This document shows positions 14,634 to 23,093 of a stretch of 41,316 nucleotides of DNA, piece by piece. The stretch comes from an uncultured Lachnospiraceae bacterium (GTDB lineage Bacteria; Bacillota; Clostridia; Lachnospirales; Lachnospiraceae). Numbering within the stretch: position 1 is the stretch's first letter; the number at the start of each line of letters is the position of its first letter. The notes beneath the pieces were generated by a model. That model made no database searches. It worked only from the letters and a program-made list of their open reading frames with translations, and was not told the DNA's origin. The stretch covers positions 1 to 41,316 of the forward strand of contig CAMWFQ010000034.1 of assembly GCA_947173495.1 (NCBI GenBank), read 5' to 3'. Made by a program: the position numbers and the translations under genes.

Positions 14634-14684
14634 TGCTAAGTGGTCAGGCAAACGGTTCGGACAGGCAGTTTTGAACGACCATAT

Positions 14685-14757
14685 GGGATCTTAGCTCAGC
14701 TGGGAGAGCATCTGCCTTACAAGCAGAGGGTCACAGGTTCGAGCCCTGTAGGTCCCA
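14685..14757 (+). tRNA. tRNA-Val (anticodon UAC)
   Basis: The full cloverleaf is visible. The acceptor strands are GGGATCT and AGGTCCC followed by A73, and the D arm is GCTCAGCTGGGAGAGC. The anticodon stem TCTGC/GCAGA encloses CTTACAA, giving anticodon TAC, and the T arm contains GGTTCGAGCC. CCA is not encoded. Confidence 0.95.
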
Positions 14758-14809
14758 TTTCAGAAACAGTATGAAAGCTGATTTCTGAGATTCATGCATT
14801 ATTTTATAT

Positions 14810-14883
14810 GGCGAGATAGCTCAGTTGGCTAGAGCACACGGTTCATACCCGTGGTGTCGAGGGTTCAAATCCCCCTCTCGCTA
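14810..14883 (+). tRNA. tRNA-Met (anticodon CAU), elongator type
   Basis: The acceptor is GGCGAGA/TCTCGCT with A73, and the D arm is GCTCAGTTGGCTAGAGC. The anticodon stem CACGG/CCGTG encloses TTCATAC, giving anticodon CAT, and the T arm is GGGTTCAAATCCC. The GGTTCATACCC anticodon region fits elongator Met rather than initiator Met or lysidine-modified Ile. CCA is not encoded. Confidence 0.9.
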
Positions 14884-14885
14884 TC

Positions 14886-14910
14886 AAACGCCCCGCATAC
14901 CGGGGCGTTT
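14886..14910 (+). terminator. Hairpin between tRNA-Met and tRNA-Pro
   Basis: A perfect 10-bp stem, AAACGCCCCG / CGGGGCGTTT, encloses loop CATAC. It lies 2 bases after tRNA-Met and immediately before tRNA-Pro. The T tract is only three bases and is part of the stem, so it could be a weak terminator or a processing signal. Confidence 0.6.
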
Positions 14911-14983
14911 CGGGGTGTGGCTCAGGTGGTAGAGCGCTACTTTAGGGAAGTAGAGGCCGCAAGTTCAAGTCTTGTCACTCCGA
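14911..14983 (+). tRNA. tRNA-Pro (anticodon AGG)
   Basis: The acceptor is CGGGGTG/CACTCCG with A73 (one G-U pair), and C1-G72 is characteristic of tRNA-Pro. The D arm is GCTCAGGTGGTAGAGC. The anticodon stem CTACT/AGTAG encloses TTAGGGA, so positions 34-36 are AGG, and the T arm is GCAAGTTCAAGTCTTGT. An unmodified or inosine A34 is rare in bacterial tRNAs other than Arg(ACG), so this anticodon deserves note. CCA is not encoded. Confidence 0.88.
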
Positions 14984-14994
14984 GGGAAGATAAG

Positions 14995-15038
14995 GAGTTT
15001 TATGATCATTGATTGAATGATTATAAAACTCTTTTTTT
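14995..15038 (+). terminator. Terminator of the tRNA cluster
   Basis: GAGTTTTATGATCATT pairs with AATGATTATAAAACTC (one small mismatch) around loop GATTG. Seven T follow at 15032-15038. It is a strong intrinsic terminator 12 bases after tRNA-Pro. Confidence 0.9.
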
Positions 15039-15050
15039 ATATCATAGGAA

Positions 15051-15124
15051 AGTGCGTCCTGTGATACAAAAAACGCTCCGCGAGGATCGCACTGCGGGAT
15101 TCTTACTTATGCGCAGGCGTGCGA
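15051..15124. repeat. Hairpin with two alternative pairings upstream of the fab promoter
   Basis: AGTGCG-TCCT (15051-15060) pairs with AGGA-T-CGCACT (15083-15093). The same CGCAC also fits GTGCGA at 15119-15124, so two mutually exclusive stems are possible. The element lies between the tRNA terminator and the acpP promoter and contains no gene. It resembles the other compound hairpins in the window. Confidence 0.55.
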
Positions 15125-15148
15125 AAGGAAAATTTTTCAAATTTTGCG

Positions 15149-15177
15149 TTGACAAACAATAGGAATTGATATATACT
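15149..15177 (+). promoter_or_regulatory. Promoter of the fab operon
   Basis: TTGACA (15149-15154) and TATACT (15172-15177) are separated by 17 bases, a near-consensus sigma-A promoter. The predicted start near 15184 lies inside the first of the TTTG-N5-CAAA sites, so a protein bound there should block initiation. Confidence 0.85.
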
Positions 15178-15237
15178 TTGCCTGTCAAATAGTTTGATTA
15201 TCAAAATGTTTGACAGGCAAATATTTGGAATATCAAA
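15177..15237 (+). promoter_or_regulatory. Phased operator array, probable FabT binding region
   Basis: Three TTTG-N5-CAAA sites have centres exactly 16 bases apart: TTTGCCTGTCAAA (15177-15189), TTTGATTATCAAA (15193-15205) and TTTGACAGGCAAA (15209-15221). A fourth with a six-base gap, TTTGGAATATCAAA (15224-15237), follows. The first three also form one 45-bp palindrome centred on 15199. The central site matches the TTTGATTATCAAA-type motif known for FabT, the MarR-family repressor of fatty acid synthesis genes in lactic bacteria. A FabT-like gene closes this operon. Binding is inferred, not shown. Confidence 0.8.
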
Positions 15238-15276
15238 TAAGTTTAAAAAGATTTTACACAAAAAAGGAGAAAAATC

Positions 15277-15510
15277 ATGTTTGAGAAAGTGGCAGCAATT
15301 ATCAGAGAACAGCTTAACTTAAAGGATGTAGAAATCAGACCGGAATCTTCTTTTGCAGAAGATCTGGAAGTGGATTCGCTGGATTTATTTGAACTGGTCA
15401 TGGCGCTTGAGGAGGAATATGATATTGAGATCCCTTCTGAAGATCTGGAATGCCTGACTACCGTAGGAGCAGTGATAGAATATCTGAAGGGCAAAGGGGT
15501 GGAAGATTGA
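15277..15510 (+). CDS. acpP: Acyl carrier protein
   Basis: This 77-residue acidic four-helix protein has the phosphopantetheine serine at S34 in [10 protein letters not shown]. After 4'-phosphopantetheinylation it carries growing acyl chains between the Fab enzymes encoded downstream. A strong AAGGAG precedes the ATG. It is the first gene of the fab operon, directly behind the FabT-type operator, and its stop codon lies inside an 11-bp perfect inverted repeat. Confidence 0.96.
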
Positions 15511-15603: not shown

Positions 15604-16536
15604 ATGAAAACCAGAGTGACAGCGCTTTTGGGGATTGAGAAGCCCGTGATACAGGGCGGTATGGCCTGGGTGGCGGAGCATCATCTTGCTGCCGCAGTAT
15701 CTGAAGCGGGAGGGCTTGGAGTGATAGCCGCTGCCAGCGCGCCGCCCGAGGTGGTGAGAAGTGAGATCAGAAAGGCCAGGGAGCTGACAGATAAGCCTGT
15801 GGGAGTAAACATTATGCTGATGAACCCCAATGCAGACGAGGTCGCAAAGGTGGTACTGGAAGAGGGCATAAAGGTAGTAACCACAGGAGCAGGCAATCCT
15901 GCCAGATTTATGAAGGAGTTCAAGAAGGCGGGGGTAAAGGTGATTCCGGTTGTGGCGAGCACAGCTATGGCCAGGCTGATGGAACGCAGCGGAGCCGATG
16001 CGGTGATTGCGGAAGGGATGGAGGCCGGAGGCCACATTGGCTCTATTACGACCATGTGTCTGGTGCCCCAGGTAAAAGACGCGGTAAAAATTCCGGTGAT
16101 CGCAGCAGGAGGAATCGGCGATGGAAGAGGATTTGCAGCTGCCTTTATGCTGGGAGCCGAGGCAGTGCAGATGGGCACAGGGTTTCTGGTGGCAAAAGAG
16201 TCTGTGATCCATGAAAATTATAAGGAAAAAGTAATAAAAGCCAAGGATATTGATTCGGAGATTACGGGCACAAGCACCGGACATCCGATTCGTCAGATTC
16301 GCAATCAGATGTCGAGAAAGTACCTGAGCCTGGAGAAGGAAGGGGCAGGGCTTGAGGAGCTGGAACAGCTCACACTGGGATCTCTTCGCAGAGCAGTGGT
16401 GGAGGGAGATGTGGTAACCGGAACGCTTATGGCCGGTCAGATAGCGGGACTGATTAAAAAAGAACAGACCTGTCGTGAGATCATGGATGAGGTCCTTGCA
16501 CAGGCACAGGAACTTCTGAGCAGAAAGGAAGCATAA
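15604..16536 (+). CDS. fabK: Enoyl-ACP reductase II (FMN-dependent)
   Basis: This 310-residue TIM-barrel flavoprotein is of the nitronate monooxygenase/FabK family. Landmarks are PVIQGGMAWVAEHHLAAAVS at the start, GVNIMLMNP, EGMEAGGHIG, and the phosphate-binding VIAAGGIGDGRG with GAEAVQMGTGFL. It reduces the trans-2 double bond of enoyl-ACP in the last step of each elongation cycle. The long-chain position in a fab operon separates it from nitronate monooxygenases. FabK-type reductases are known to be insensitive to triclosan, and no fabI is present here. It has a GGAG ribosome site. Confidence 0.94.
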   Translation: MKTRVTALLGIEKPVIQGGMAWVAEHHLAAAVSEAGGLGVIAAASAPPEVVRSEIRKARELTDKPVGVNIMLMNPNADEVAKVVLEEGIKVVTTGAGNPARFMKEFKKAGVKVIPVVASTAMARLMERSGADAVIAEGMEAGGHIGSITTMCLVPQVKDAVKIPVIAAGGIGDGRGFAAAFMLGAEAVQMGTGFLVAKESVIHENYKEKVIKAKDIDSEITGTSTGHPIRQIRNQMSRKYLSLEKEGAGLEELEQLTLGSLRRAVVEGDVVTGTLMAGQIAGLIKKEQTCREIMDEVLAQAQELLSRKEA

Positions 16537-16540
16537 AAGT

Positions 16541-17467
16541 ATGGGTAGAACGGCATTTATTTTCCCGGGGCAGGGGGCGCAGTACCCGGGAATGGGAAAA
16601 GATTTTTACGAGAACGAAGCAGTTTCCAGGGAAGTATTCGATAAGGCCGGTCTGATTACGGGACTGGATCTTACCAGGATCTGTTTTGAAGAGAATGAGA
16701 AGCTGAATATTACAGAATATACGCAGATCGCTATGCTGGCTACAGAAATCGCGATCCTGAAGGTCCTGGAAGAGCGAGGAATCCGTGCCGATGTGACGGC
16801 AGGACTGAGTCTGGGCGAGTACGGAGCCGTTGTGGCGGCAGGTGTCATGCGGGCGGAGGATGCTTTTGCCGTAGTGAGAAGGAGAGGTATTTATATGCAG
16901 GAGGCGGTGCCGGAAGGAGGAGCCATGTCTGCAGTACTGGGAATGGAAAGCACTGTGGTGGAGGAAGTGTGCAGCAGGACCCCGGGTCTGGTGACGGTTG
17001 CCAATTATAATTGCCCCGGACAGATCGTGATTACAGGAGAAAAGGATGCGGTTGACAGGGCGGGGGAAACGCTGAAGGAAAGAGGGGCAAAACGGATCAT
17101 TCCCTTAAATGTCAGTGGACCCTTTCATTCACAGATGCTTATTTCTGCGGGAGAGCGCCTTTTGAAAGATCTGGAAAGAGTGCGGATCCAGGATCCGAAA
17201 ATACCCTATGTCGCGAATCTCACAGCAGATTATGTGAATGCAAAGGAGGAAGTCAGGTACCTTTTGAAGCAGCAGATATCGTCTCCCGTGAAATGGCAGC
17301 AGTCTGTGGAGAGAATGATTGGGGATGGCGTTACAGCCTTTGTGGAAATCGGTCCCGGAAAAACTCTGAGCGGATTTGTGAAAAAGATTGACCGGAAGAT
17401 GACGGTTATCAATGTGGATCATTATGAGGATCTGTTAGCGTGTATGGAGGTGTTGGCAAATGCTTGA
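16541..17467 (+). CDS. fabD: Malonyl-CoA:ACP transacylase
   Basis: This 308-residue acyltransferase has [12 protein letters not shown] at the N-terminus, nucleophile S90 in [10 protein letters not shown], and partner histidine H196 in GPFHSQM. It moves malonyl from CoA to ACP to make the elongation substrate. It starts 4 bases after fabK and overlaps fabG by 8 bases, consistent with coupled translation. Length and motifs are normal for the family. Confidence 0.96.
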
Positions 17468-18200
17468 AAGAGAAGTGGCTCTGGTTACCGGAGGCAGCAG
17501 GGGGATCGGCAGGCAGATCGCGCTGGCACTTGCAAGGAAGGGATTTTTTGTGATTGTGAATTATAACGGCTCCAGGGAGAAGGCCGTGGAAACCGTGGAG
17601 ATGGTCAAAGCTGCCGGAGGGCAGGCACAGGCTGTTCCCTGCAATGTGGCGGATTATGGAGACTGTGAAGAAATGATCAGGCAGCTGATTGGAGAATATG
17701 GACATATAGATGTTCTGGTAAATAATGCCGGGATTACCAGGGATAATCTTCTGGCCCGAATGAGCAGCGAGGAGTTTGACCAGGTGATCAGCGTAAATCT
17801 GAAGGGATGTTTTAACACCATGCGACATCTGAGCAGACAGTTCCTGAAGCAGAAAAAGGGCAGGATTATCAATGTCTCCTCGGTGACGGGAATAACAGGA
17901 AATGCAGGGCAGGCCAATTACTGTGCATCCAAGGCAGGTGTGATCGGATTGACCAAAAGTGCGGCCAGAGAGCTGGGGAGCAGAGGAATTACCGTAAATG
18001 CAGTGGCCCCCGGCCTGATAGAGACAGAAATGACCGAAAAGCTTCCCGACGCAGTAAAGGAGGCCATGAAAGAACAGATTTTGTTAAAAAGAGCCGGAAC
18101 TGCCGAAGAAGTGGCGGAGGTGGTCGCTTTTCTTGCCTCGCCGGAGGCATCCTATATCACAGGGCAGGTGATATCCGTAGATGGCGGAATGGCGCTTTAA
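17460..18200 (+). CDS. fabG: 3-oxoacyl-ACP reductase
   Basis: This 246-residue short-chain dehydrogenase has NADP-binding [12 protein letters not shown] (10-21), NNAGITRDN (88-96), and the Ser-Tyr-Lys triad with SSVTG near 140, Y154 and K158 in NYCASKAG. The C-terminal [10 protein letters not shown] is typical of FabG. It reduces beta-ketoacyl-ACP to the 3-hydroxy form. Its start lies inside fabD, with GGAGG at 17444-17448. Confidence 0.96.
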
Positions 18201-18211
18201 GGAGGAGAGAG

Positions 18212-19447
18212 ATGAGCAGACGAGTAGTAGTGACCGGACTGGGAGCCATAACTCCCATAGGGCTTAATGTGGAGGAATTTTTCGCATCCATCAGAAAAGG
18301 GAAGCATGGGTTTGGAGTAATCAGCGGATTTGATCATGGAAATTATAAATGTCATGTGGCGGCACAGATCAGCGGATTTGATCCCAAAAGCAGTATGGAC
18401 GCCAGAGCGGCGCGGCGTATGGAGCCATTCAGCCAGTATGCGGTGGCAGCGGCCGGGGAGGCACTTGCAGATGCCGGAATTTGTATGGAAAACGAGGATC
18501 CGTACAGAACAGGGTGTGCAGTGGGATCGGGAATCGGAAGCCTTGCAGCAATGGAAAGAGAGTATGACAAGTTAAAGGAAAAGGGACCGTCAAGAGTAAA
18601 TCCGATTTTTATCCCACTGATGATTTCCAATATGGCAGCAGGAAATGTATCCATACAATTTGGGTTGAAGGGAAAAAGCCTTAACGTGGTCACAGCCTGT
18701 GCCACAGGAACCAACTGTATCGGGGAGGCTTTCCGCAGCATTCAGTACGGAGAAGCGGATGTGATGGTGGCAGGCGGCACAGAAAGCGCGGTGACGCCTC
18801 TGGGGATTGCAGGCTTCAGCTCCCTGACGGCGCTCTCCACGGTGGAGGACCCGGATCAATGCTGTCTTCCCTTTGACAAAAACCGCAGTGGGTTCGTTAT
18901 GGGAGAGGGAGCCGGGATCGTAGTCTTAGAGGAGCTGGAGCATGCGCGGAAACGAAATGCCCGTATTTATGCAGAGGTGCTGGGATATGGATGTACCAGC
19001 GATGCCTATCACATTACGTCTCCGGCGGAGGATGGAGAGGGAGCAGCCAGAGCGATGCTGAGCGCTCTGCAGGACGGTAATGTAAAGCCGGAAGAACTCA
19101 CCTATATCAACGCCCACGGAACAGGCACACATCATAATGATCTTTTTGAAACCAGAGCCATCAAGAAAGCGTTTGGAGACCACGCCGCAAATATTCGCAT
19201 TAATTCCACAAAGTCTATGGTGGGACATCTTTTAGGGGCGGCGGGAGCGGTTGAATTTGTGACCTGCATAAAAGAAATGGAAACGGGATTCATTCATAAA
19301 ACAGTGGGGTATAAGACACCGGATGAGGAGATGGATCTTGATTACTGCAGAGAGGCTTACGTTGAGGAGATTCCCTATGCTCTGAGCAACTCTCTTGGAT
19401 TCGGCGGACATAATACGAGTATTTTAATAGGTAGTTTCAGAGAATAA
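18212..19447 (+). CDS. fabF: Beta-ketoacyl-ACP synthase II
   Basis: This 411-residue condensing enzyme has the Cys-His-His triad at C163 (VTACATGTNCIG), H302 (NAHGTGTHHND) and H339 (SMVGHLLGAAGA). It condenses malonyl-ACP with the growing acyl chain. FabF is the only elongating synthase seen here; fabB is absent, as usual in Gram-positive bacteria. A GGAGGAGAG ribosome site precedes the ATG 11 bases after fabG. Confidence 0.96.
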   Translation: MSRRVVVTGLGAITPIGLNVEEFFASIRKGKHGFGVISGFDHGNYKCHVAAQISGFDPKSSMDARAARRMEPFSQYAVAAAGEALADAGICMENEDPYRTGCAVGSGIGSLAAMEREYDKLKEKGPSRVNPIFIPLMISNMAAGNVSIQFGLKGKSLNVVTACATGTNCIGEAFRSIQYGEADVMVAGGTESAVTPLGIAGFSSLTALSTVEDPDQCCLPFDKNRSGFVMGEGAGIVVLEELEHARKRNARIYAEVLGYGCTSDAYHITSPAEDGEGAARAMLSALQDGNVKPEELTYINAHGTGTHHNDLFETRAIKKAFGDHAANIRINSTKSMVGHLLGAAGAVEFVTCIKEMETGFIHKTVGYKTPDEEMDLDYCREAYVEEIPYALSNSLGFGGHNTSILIGSFRE

Positions 19448-19474
19448 GGGATCAGATGTAAGAGGTGAGAAAGA

Positions 19475-19924
19475 ATGTCGTTATTGTCAACAAAGGAAAT
19501 TATGGATATTATCCCTCACAGGCAGCCCTTCCTGCTGATCGATACGGTGGAAGAGCTGATTCCGGGTGTGAAAGCAGTTGCAAAAAAATGTGTTTCCTAC
19601 AATGAACCTTTTTTTCAGGGACATTTTCCCGGTGAGCCTGTGATGCCCGGTGTCCTGATCATTGAGGCGCTGGCCCAGGCGGGAGCTGTGGCAATTTTAA
19701 GTCTGGAAGAAAATAAAGGGAAAACAGCATATTTTGGCGGGATTCAGTCCGCAAAGTTTAAGAAAAAAGTCGTTCCCGGAGATGTGCTGATTCTGGAAAC
19801 CGAGATCATAAAGCAAAAAGGACCTGTGGGAATGGGCAGAGCAGTGGCAAGCGTGGAGGGGCAGGTGGCTGCCCAGGCGGAGCTGACGTTTGTGGTATCA
19901 AAACAGAGCCGGGAGGAATCGTAA
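19475..19924 (+). CDS. fabZ: 3-hydroxyacyl-ACP dehydratase
   Basis: This 149-residue hot-dog fold protein has [14 protein letters not shown] at the N-terminus, catalytic H50 in [14 protein letters not shown] and E64 in IIEALAQAG. It removes water from 3-hydroxyacyl-ACP to form trans-2-enoyl-ACP, the FabK substrate. In related operons accB is often placed between fabF and fabZ; here it is absent. Its stop is 1 base before the accDA ATG. Confidence 0.96.
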
Positions 19925-19925
19925 A

Positions 19926-21629
19926 ATGGGGATTAAGGAAAGACTGGCAGAAAGAAGAAAACAGAGAGAGGAAGAGAAGCAGCTTCAGAAAGAAAAGGAT
20001 ATGATTCTCTGCCCTGTCTGTAAAAAGGAGTCGGAGCGGGAGCAGGTGATAGCCGGTTTTTATGTCTGTCCCTGTTGCGGGAATTATTTCCGTGTCAGAA
20101 CCAAAAACAGAATCCGCATGGTTTGTGACAGAGGCTCCTTTCAGCCCTGGTTTGAGGAACTGGAATCCGGCAATCCGCTGAATTTTCCCGGATATGAGGA
20201 AAAGATAAATGAGGTAAAGGAAAAGACAGGACTCAGGGAAGGAGTGACGGTAGGCGAGGGGAAGATTTTTGGTGAAAAGGCGTGTATCGGCGTGTGCGAT
20301 TCCCGTTTCCTCATGGGCAGTATGGGACATGTGGTAGGAGAAAAGATTACCCTTGCGGTTGAAAGAGCAACTGAGAAGAAGCTTCCGGTTATTTTGTTCT
20401 GCTGTTCCGGAGGCGCAAGAATGCAGGAGGGTATTCTGTCTCTGATGCAGATGGCAAAAACTTCGGCAGCACTCAAAAAGCATTCGGATGCAGGGCTTTT
20501 GTATGTGCCGGTGCTGACAGACCCTACCACCGGCGGTGTGACGGCAAGCTTTGCCATGCTGGGGGATATTATTCTGGCAGAGCCGGGTGCACTGATCGGA
20601 TTTGCCGGCCCCAGAGTGATTGAACAGACCATAGGGAAAAAGCTTCCCGAAGGGTTTCAGAGCGCGGAATTCCAGCTGGAACACGGGTTCGTGGACAGGA
20701 TCGTAAAGAGAGAGGAGCTGAAGGAAGTACTCTTCAAAATCCTGAAATTACACAGAAATCCGGGCGGAGGATATGCCAATTTCACCCGGGAAATCGAAAA
20801 ATTTTATCCTACGGAGCCGGACAGAGAGAAGCAGGCAAAAACGCCTGACAGAACGCCATGGCAGAAGGTGAAGGAATCCAGAAGCATGAAGCGCCCCAGC
20901 TCTCACACTTATATTGATTTGATGTTTGATGAATTTATGGAATTCTACGGAGACAGATGCTTTGGGGATGACAAGGCGATTACAGGCGGTATCGCATCTC
21001 TTTACGGACAGCCGCTGACAGTGATCGGCGTTCAGAAGGGGAATGATGCCAGGGAATGCGCGCTTCGCAACTATGGCATGACGTCGCCGGGGGGCTACCG
21101 AAAGGCTTTGAGACTGATGAAGCAGGCGGAAAAGTTCGGGCGTCCGATTATATGCCTGATCAATACGTCCGGCGCTTATCCAGGAATGGAAGCGGAAGAG
21201 CGGGGACAGGGAGAAGCCATTGCCCGGAATCTGTTTGAAATGTCGGGGATTCATGTGCCGATCCTTTCTATTCTGATTGGTGAAGGAGGAAGCGGAGGCG
21301 CGCTGGGGCTTGCCGTGGGAAATGAAGTGTGGATGCTGGAAAATTCCACTTATTCTATTTTATCACCGGAAGGCTTTGCTTCTATTTTGTGGAAGGATGG
21401 AAAGCGTGCGAAGGAAGCGGCAGGTGTTATGGGGATCACGGCGGATGATTTAAAGCGTCTTCAGGTTATTGAAAAGATTATACCGGAATATGGCGGAGCC
21501 GACAGTTCTACCGTAAAAGATATTGCAGGGTATATAAAAATAAACATAGCGGATTTCCTTCAGAAGTTTGATGGGATGGATCAGGAGGAAATCGTCAGGA
21601 AGCGATATGAAAGATTTCGAAAGTTTTAG
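19926..21629 (+). CDS. accDA: Fused acetyl-CoA carboxylase carboxyltransferase (beta-alpha)
   Basis: This single 567-residue protein joins AccD and AccA. The N-terminal part has the AccD zinc ribbon with C29, C32, C48 and C51 ([19 protein letters not shown]) and a crotonase-like core ([28 protein letters not shown]). From about residue 300 it becomes AccA ([54 protein letters not shown]). It transfers the carboxyl group from biotin to acetyl-CoA, giving malonyl-CoA. The two halves are separate genes in most bacteria. accB and accC are not in this cluster. The start at 19926 has GGAGG at 19912; a longer frame upstream overlaps fabZ and is rejected. Confidence 0.94.
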
Positions 21630-21645
21630 ACAGGAGGAAACGGGT

Positions 21646-22617
21646 ATGTCAGCAGGAATAGTCGGAACCGGAAGCGCTCTGCCGGCAAGGGTGGTCAGCA
21701 ACCAGGAACTTGAAAGGCTGGTGGATACTACGGATGAGTGGATCAGAAGCAGGACCGGAATCGAAAGCCGGCATATAGCGGTGGAGGAGACAACAACTTC
21801 CATGGCTGTGGAGGCGGCTGAAAAAGCAATGAAAAATGCAGGTGTTACGGCGGATGAGATTGATCTGATCATCGTTGGCACTGTATCCGGAGATATGCAC
21901 TTCCCCTCGACGGCCTGCCAGGTCCAGAAAGAAATATCGGCCGGAAATGCAACTGCATTTGATATCAATGCAGCCTGCGCGGGATTCCTGTTCGGTCTGG
22001 CGATTGCCGATGCCTATATCAGATCAGGGATGGCACGGACAGCGCTTATCATCGGGGCAGAAACGCTTTCCAAGCTGACAGACTGGAGCGACAGAGGAAC
22101 CTGTGTGCTTTTCGGAGATGGGGCAGGGGCCGCAGTGGTACAGAAAAAAGAAGAGGGTATTTTGAGCATTGCCCAGGGCTCGGATGGAGCGGGAGGAGGA
22201 GCGCTCACCTGCCGGGACAGAGAGAACAGCAATCCCTTTATGACGCAGGCCATGATGAATACAGACCCGGACCACACCCATATGAACGGCCAGGAGGTCT
22301 ACCGATTCGCTGTAAAAACAGTACCGGTGATTATTGAAAAGGCTCTGGAAAAAGCGCAGCTCGGGCCGGAGGATATTAAATTTTTCCTTCTACATCAGGC
22401 CAATATCAGGATTATCGAGGCTGTTGCCAGAAAGCTGGGGCAGCCGGCCGAAAAATTTCCCACAAACCTGCAGAAATGTGGTAATATTTCAGCGGGGAGT
22501 ATTCCGGTATTGCTGGACTATGTCCATCAGGAGGGAATGCTTCAAAAAGGAGATAAAATCGTGCTGGCAGGTTTTGGAGGCGGCCTTACATTCGGAGCGG
22601 CGGTTCTGATATGGTAG
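21646..22617 (+). CDS. fabH: Beta-ketoacyl-ACP synthase III
   Basis: This 323-residue thiolase-fold enzyme has the Cys-His-Asn triad at C111 (INAACAGF), H250 (LLHQANIRI) and N280 (KCGNISAGS). It starts chains by condensing acetyl- or branched acyl-CoA with malonyl-ACP. The start at 21646 has AGGAGG at 21632-21637; two earlier in-frame ATGs (21568, 21607) overlap accDA and lack a site at proper distance. It is placed near the end of the operon, whereas fabH is commonly first in related operons. Confidence 0.94.
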   Translation: MSAGIVGTGSALPARVVSNQELERLVDTTDEWIRSRTGIESRHIAVEETTTSMAVEAAEKAMKNAGVTADEIDLIIVGTVSGDMHFPSTACQVQKEISAGNATAFDINAACAGFLFGLAIADAYIRSGMARTALIIGAETLSKLTDWSDRGTCVLFGDGAGAAVVQKKEEGILSIAQGSDGAGGGALTCRDRENSNPFMTQAMMNTDPDHTHMNGQEVYRFAVKTVPVIIEKALEKAQLGPEDIKFFLLHQANIRIIEAVARKLGQPAEKFPTNLQKCGNISAGSIPVLLDYVHQEGMLQKGDKIVLAGFGGGLTFGAAVLIW

Positions 22618-22649: not shown

Positions 22650-23093
22650 ATGGAATTGAATCAGACGCTGAATACCTTATTGGTCACCTTATTTCAGGAT
22701 ATCATGGATATCGAGCAGAAGGCGCTTATCACGGGAGAATTTACGGATATTACAATAAATGATATGCATGTGATAGAGGCGATAGGCAAAGGGGAGCCCA
22801 GTCCAAGTTCAGCAGTGGCCAAACGACTTTCCGTTACCATGGGAACGCTTACCAAGGCAGTAGACCGGCTTGTAAGAAATCACTACGTGCTGCGGGAAAG
22901 AAGCGAGGAGGATAAACGGCTGGTACTGCTGTCTCTTTTGGAAAAAGGAGAGAGGGCCTATGCCCACCATGAAAACTTTCATAAGGAAATGGTCAGGGCG
23001 GCGGTGGCGGAGCTTGATGAAAAAGAAGTAAAAATTCTGGCAAATTCTCTGAGCGATCTTGTGGATTATTTCAGAAAGCAGAATGATAACTGA
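22650..23093 (+). CDS. fabT: MarR-family regulator, FabT-like
   Basis: This protein of about 147 residues has a MarR winged helix: ITINDMHVIEAIGKGEPSPS, then VAKRLSVTMGTLTKAVDRLV (recognition helix) and the wing VLRERSEEDKRLVLLSLLEKG. FabT represses fatty acid synthesis genes when bound to long-chain acyl-ACP and recognises TTTGATTATCAAA-type palindromes. Such a site sits at the operon promoter. Being the last gene of the operon, it should be autoregulated. ATG 22650 behind GGAG is chosen; ATG 22611 overlaps fabH and would add 13 residues. The assignment to FabT rests on context plus operator. Confidence 0.85.
   Translation: MELNQTLNTLLVTLFQDIMDIEQKALITGEFTDITINDMHVIEAIGKGEPSPSSAVAKRLSVTMGTLTKAVDRLVRNHYVLRERSEEDKRLVLLSLLEKGERAYAHHENFHKEMVRAAVAELDEKEVKILANSLSDLVDYFRKQNDN

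Follow-up and report, generated by a model that had tools for sequence, protein, structure and literature searches.

The promoter of the fatty-acid synthesis operon of an uncultured Lachnospiraceae bacterium carries a row of four 13-bp boxes set 16 bp apart which, as judged from its sequence and its recurrence in relatives, is a conserved FabT-type operator. In several Firmicutes, FabT is known to hold back fatty-acid synthesis at the level of transcription. We consider it likely (probability about 0.75) that the four boxes form one phased multi-dimer FabT operator, repressing the operon at its start site.

The row of boxes at the acpP promoter

The window (the whole stretch of DNA analysed, 41,316 nucleotides) belongs to a genome of 4.58 Mb (G000), whose fabK has named relatives that point to Lachnospiraceae, and holds a gene cluster in the order acpP-fabK-fabD-fabG-fabF-fabZ-accDA-fabH-fabT. 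The features of the promoter and the cluster are as follows.

14684-14984: cluster of tRNA-Val, tRNA-Met and tRNA-Pro, upstream of the acpP promoter
15149-15177, forward strand: predicted sigma-70-type promoter TTGACA-N17-TATACT, 11 of 12 consensus positions
15177-15189, forward strand: box 1, TTTGCCTGTCAAA, exact match, in phase in relatives
15193-15205, forward strand: box 2, TTTGATTATCAAA, exact match, consensus-like FabT box
15209-15221, forward strand: box 3, TTTGACAGGCAAA, exact match, the reverse complement of box 1
15177-15221, no strand: imperfect 45-bp palindrome formed by boxes 1-3, two 22-nt arms, 91% complementary, with 1 nt between them
15225-15237, forward strand: box 4, TTGGAATATCAAA, one mismatch, in the 16-bp phase, with an exact box at this place in several close relatives
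15277-15510, forward strand: acpP (acyl carrier protein), which opens the operon
15604-22617, forward strand: fabK, fabD, fabG, fabF, fabZ, accD-accA (one reading frame) and fabH
22650-23093, forward strand: fabT, FabT-like repressor of the MarR family (NCBIfam FabT, fold match 6jbx), last gene of the fab cluster and likely binder of the array

The first-pass annotation had described three 13-bp sites with centres at 15183, 15199 and 15215, nested in a 45-bp palindrome. The sites are indeed exact matches to TTTG-N5-CAAA (TTTGNNNNNCAAA) in two steps of 16 bp, and the palindrome is there as described. A fourth site had been read with an N6 spacer (at 15224); we dropped that reading, which is unnecessary because an N5 box follows exactly 16 bp after box 3. 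Across the genus the nested palindrome is a trait of only some members, the general trait being the phased array. By eye, box 2 and its flanks agree with 15 of the 16 specified positions of ANTTTGATTATCAAATT, given in a passage of PMC10138225 as the FabT consensus. The central site, already taken as FabT-like, is to that extent a palindrome of the FabT type at a fab promoter. It is not a single palindrome per promoter, as there are four in-phase boxes here and phased boxes in relatives.

Box 1 and the predicted -10 hexamer share one base, the first of the box and the last of the hexamer, and the array extends into the predicted 5' UTR of the acpP operon. The sites had been placed over the acpP start site, which is right for the transcription start at 15184, predicted from the promoter, and not for the acpP ATG itself, which lies at 15277. 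Of the 26 genus arrays compared, 21 likewise have a -10 element whose final base opens box 1, and the promoter spacer is 17 bp in all 21 (G222, with one base upstream, is left out of this count). Four promoters among the loci compared below (L033, L043, L046 and L048) have a one-mismatch box, CTTGACAATCAAA, that overlaps the -35 element and does not keep the 16-bp phase of the boxes downstream. A long AT-rich terminator-like hairpin (14992-15034, 19 pairs) separates the tRNA cluster of the window from the acpP promoter.

Taken over the whole window, the count of sites hardly stands out (five, against a shuffle mean of 1.40, with at least five in 4 of 100 shuffles). When the 161 bp from 15116 to 15276 were subjected to 200,000 dinucleotide shuffles, a 16-phased pair arose twice, three or more sites once, and a phased triple never, the last of which rules out a chance origin of the array. 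TTTGANNNTCAAA occurs at eight places in the window's genome, against four for the control; outside the array, six of its seven occurrences fall within reading frames picked mechanically, and the remaining one (L136) lies between genes. A search of this genome for a second array with up to two mismatches found none, and gave, beyond the known places, two poor matches against one for the control.

Conservation of the 16-bp phase

Eighty loci were picked by fabK similarity alone, and the 72 with an exact anchor box near the operon start were compared (eight were left out). Within 70 bp of the anchor, 59 further exact boxes lie at multiples of 16 bp and three at all 126 other offsets together; with one mismatch allowed, the figures are 91 and 10. 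The 55 anchored loci outside L003-L020 still have +16 as their top offset (z 6.5). Longer runs of boxes go with the presence of fabT in the operon (27 loci with and 40 without; 4 loci that lack a box and 13 of the 80 whose downstream sequence is too short were left out; P 7e-7, or 0.008 excluding L003-L020), with related genomes treated as separate here and in all our genome counts.

Within the genus, an exact phased pair is present in 26 of 37 genomes and the reversed pattern in none. All 27 genomes that carry fabK at E ≤ 1e-80 have a phased run before it, with two boxes in 3, three in 9, four in 13, five in 1 and six in 1, where a box may have no more than one core mismatch, except for one bridging box with two in G227; only one box is exact in 2 of the 27 runs. 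The ten genomes without fabK at that threshold are G203, G204, G207, G209, G213, G218, G219, G221, G224 and G229; in G221, acpP lies behind a phased array although fabK is missing at this level. The promoters of G227 and G205 are nearly identical and have six and three boxes, respectively, indicating that array length has changed by whole 16-bp units. Among the 24 runs of at least three boxes, TTTGATNATCAAA stands at box 2 in 13, at box 1 in 2 and at box 3 in 2 (recounted by script); a hand count over 22 arrays gave 13 for box 2 against 1 and 1 for boxes 1 and 3 (Fisher 2e-4).

Scanning whole genomes for the bare two-box pattern, blind to genes, detected it in 24 of 200 family genomes, against 0 of 200 for the reversed control. 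Besides the window's own, 21 of the 23 family array loci lie before acpP or fabH-acpP, the exceptions being L086 and L094, and 23 of the 25 genus pair loci are at fab genes, L108 and L112 not being at this fab operon. Two family genomes (G140 and G196) have a second phased pair with no fab gene adjoining in the listed frames. The pair at L086:1501-1529 (G045) adjoins a carboxyl-transferase gene of the acyl-CoA carboxylase type. Across the phylum the pair is rare, occurring in seven of 398 genomes, the window's included (reversed control, 1 of 398); three of the six others are fused to TATAC and stand before fabT-fabH (L142), fabH-acpP-fabK (L145) and a FabK-like enzyme (L144), while L143, L146 and L147 have no fab gene near. 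FabK-like enzymes of the nitronate-monooxygenase family are found behind a phased two-box operator in two distant genomes, at L108:359-1417 (G201) and L144:1564-2634 (G593); they match Pfam NMO and lie far below the cut-off of the FabK model, and this type of enzyme is a candidate for a further FabT target.

FabT genes are present in 51 of the 398 phylum genomes. With FabT as bait, 29 loci were obtained from the 50 FabT-bearing genomes other than the window's, and the 19 with a good box, all outside the family, were compared (10 without one were left out). Nine second boxes (at least 7 of 8 core letters) lie at +16 or -16, and seven at the 114 other offsets together. At L180, L183 and L184 the boxes begin on TATAC. 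Single boxes are common among FabT loci (L181, L182, L185 and L186 are examples), and since each locus spans about 1.5 kb on either side of the gene, operators elsewhere are missed. Two loci have a 14-bp step: L187 and L188 (G240 and G287) carry two exact boxes 14 bp apart before fabT, the first fused to TATAC, and L188 has a third box at +16.

Non-conserved outer sites had been named beforehand as evidence against the array. They are conserved, together with their 16-bp phase, in other acpP and fab promoters of the family, which strongly supports the original suggestion that the operator goes beyond the single-site FabT model, as a multi-box operator. The boxes could nevertheless be independent FabT sites, holding dimers without contact or mutual help, where extra boxes raise the local occupancy and 16 bp is simply the closest packing free of clashes. 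Contact and close packing give the same picture in all the computed data, and passages of PMC5526998 describe the dimers of another MarR protein, Rv2887, as sitting independently on DNA. However, the exact phase over up to six boxes and the change in length by whole units between G227 and G205 suggest a selected geometry, and mere extra sites would be free in their distance, yet only three exact boxes are out of phase. We therefore regard independent sites as unlikely, though as the most serious of the alternatives. To judge by the layout of the boxes, the suspicion that more than one dimer is involved appears well founded, and the same spacing, kept with two to six copies in close relatives, suggests that the repressor acts as a row of neighbours on the DNA. 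Cooperativity or multimer formation we infer solely from this spacing.

FabT as the candidate binder

The operon had been said to encode a FabT-like protein, and it does; translation probably starts at 22650 rather than 22611, as suggested by the GGAG just upstream. The AlphaFold model of the protein (pLDDT 93.5) has a MarR fold, and its best PDB match is 6jbx, the pneumococcal FabT-DNA complex (TM 0.89, 35% identity), with the ST1710-DNA complex 3gfi ranking fifth; 6jbx is also the best phmmer match (1.8e-25). The protein is, accordingly, a MarR winged-helix protein closest to FabT, encoded by the last gene of the fab cluster. Its NCBIfam FabT score is 131.9 bits, below the curated cut-off of 200. 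That cut-off is passed in only 2 of 398 phylum genomes, and the Lactococcus lactis control also falls below it, so it works as a limit for annotation and does not define what a FabT is. We label the protein FabT-like.

FabT matches at E ≤ 1e-20 occur in 109 of 200 family genomes; the authors of a 2015 study of rumen butyrivibrios state, in passages of PMC4478896, that they could not verify the presence of FabT. The match is found in 22 of the 24 array genomes and in 87 of the 176 others (Fisher 5e-5, related genomes counted separately). Forty fabK loci have no fabT within 9.3 kb downstream, and 38 of their genomes have FabT elsewhere. The two array genomes without a FabT match are G018, which is 78% complete, and G104, where a phased pair fused to a TATAC -10 element (L211:4855-4883) precedes fabH and the rest of the fab operon and FabT is absent at E 1e-6. 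The box consensus, the operon position, the co-occurrence and the fold support FabT as the binder.

A regulator other than FabT seems improbable as the binder of these boxes, because box 2 fits the FabT consensus; fabT also lies in the same gene cluster and co-occurs with the array. Of the two fabK genomes without FabT, that of L017 is also without a good box, and that of L025 retains one. In favour of another regulator are the array genomes G018 and G104, the phased pairs away from fab genes (L086, L094, L108, L112, G140 and G196) and the score of the protein below the curated cut-off.

We give still less weight to the palindrome acting as a hairpin at the 5' end of the mRNA, in stability or translation, and not as a row of protein-binding sites. 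If all of it were transcribed, 15178-15237 would fold with -23.6 kcal/mol (z -6.05), and less strongly from the predicted start at 15184 (z -2.80), but good folding is to be expected of any palindromes set in a row. Box 1 shares sequence with the -10 element and lies partly upstream of the predicted start, the number of boxes varies from 1 to 6 among relatives, and Rfam has no family at gathering score over the array (between 14600 and 15700 only the three tRNAs reach it). The inner letters of boxes 1 and 3 do match better within than between genomes, both in 22 arrays (P 0.0001) and in the 10 core arrays (P 0.008), yet this is not seen in the other 12 arrays (P 0.25) or in the spacers (P 0.27 overall). 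This test covered 22 of the 27 genus arrays (G230, G201 and G222 have fewer than three boxes, G208 and G210 contain N letters) and took the degenerate box fused to the -10 element of G200 as box 1. An RNA hairpin is weakened by these results and is possible for those members of the genus that have the full palindrome.

A proposed mechanism and its place among known operators

For the FabT operator, then, we propose that each 13-bp box is the site of one FabT dimer and that the four boxes make up one operator, which would cover the edge of the -10 element, the predicted transcription start and the 5' UTR of the fatty-acid operon. As long-chain acyl-ACP builds up, FabT dimers would line up next to one another on the DNA, one every 16 bp; that the signal is acyl-ACP is inferred by analogy with lactic acid bacteria, where it is the co-repressor of FabT according to passages of PMC9083066. 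Box 2, nearest the consensus, would probably be filled first and its neighbours then, an order suggested by TTTGATNATCAAA being commonest at box 2. By calculation, a 16-bp step is 1.52 turns, or 188.6 degrees at 10.5 bp per turn, and 32 bp leave 17 degrees; because the step is about 1.5 helical turns, adjacent dimers would sit on nearly opposite faces of the DNA, alternating along the row, with every second dimer on the same face. The bound row would block RNA polymerase and lower the production of AcpP, the Fab enzymes and FabT. Because fabT closes the cluster, the regulator would itself be under the control of the row.

The FabT operators of Streptococcus, Lactococcus and Enterococcus (passages of PMC10138225 and PMC9083066) share the 13-bp core, the fab operon as target and the regulator family with the one described here, but the passages that treat them describe a specific palindrome per promoter, whereas here there are four boxes in 16-bp phase, and up to six in relatives. 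In the DNA complex of Rv2887, described in passages of PMC5526998 that name QacR and ST1710 as similar, a pair of dimers occupies nearly opposite faces of the DNA and each dimer covers about 15 bp, a length close to the 16-bp step of the present row. Such complexes, however, stop at two dimers, and their ligands and targets are different. QacR itself belongs outside the MarR family. ZitR and MepR, as described in passages of PMC6372160 and PMC8698293, belong to the MarR family too and repress from a pair of operator palindromes at a single promoter, which differ from the present boxes in number, sequence and signal; the ZitR sites overlap the -35 and -10 elements, upstream on the promoter, while the row here runs downstream from the -10. 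IdeR/DtxR, in passages of PMC8464063, likewise place two dimers on opposite faces and do so cooperatively, but these are unrelated metal regulators, their two dimers using interleaved half-sites in a 19-bp target. The passages found in the open-access literature searched, which cite Jerga and Rock 2009 and Zuo et al. 2019 as primary FabT papers, mention neither phased or multiple FabT boxes in one promoter nor FabT operators of Lachnospiraceae. Within that literature the phased FabT array appears to be new, two-dimer arrangements being already known for other MarR proteins.

More tentatively, and as a real possibility that we hold with reservation, Lachnospiraceae FabT may be a short polymer that nucleates on the consensus box and spreads along a 16-bp ladder on alternating faces. 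Array length (two to six boxes, in whole units) would then set the steepness of the response to acyl-ACP, the ladder would carry more of the specificity than any single box, and a two-step ladder fused to the -10 element would be a common FabT operator of Bacillota, overlooked, if this is true, because single palindromes were annotated. How FabT recognizes DNA is disputed, as passages of PMC9083066 and PMC12408189 hold that the only crystal structure of FabT on DNA has too few contacts with bases to account for specific binding. The phased ladder offers a testable answer to this dispute, in which specificity and a switch-like response would come from neighbouring dimers, and the natural arrays, with two, three, four, five or six boxes, provide material for relating operator number to feedback.
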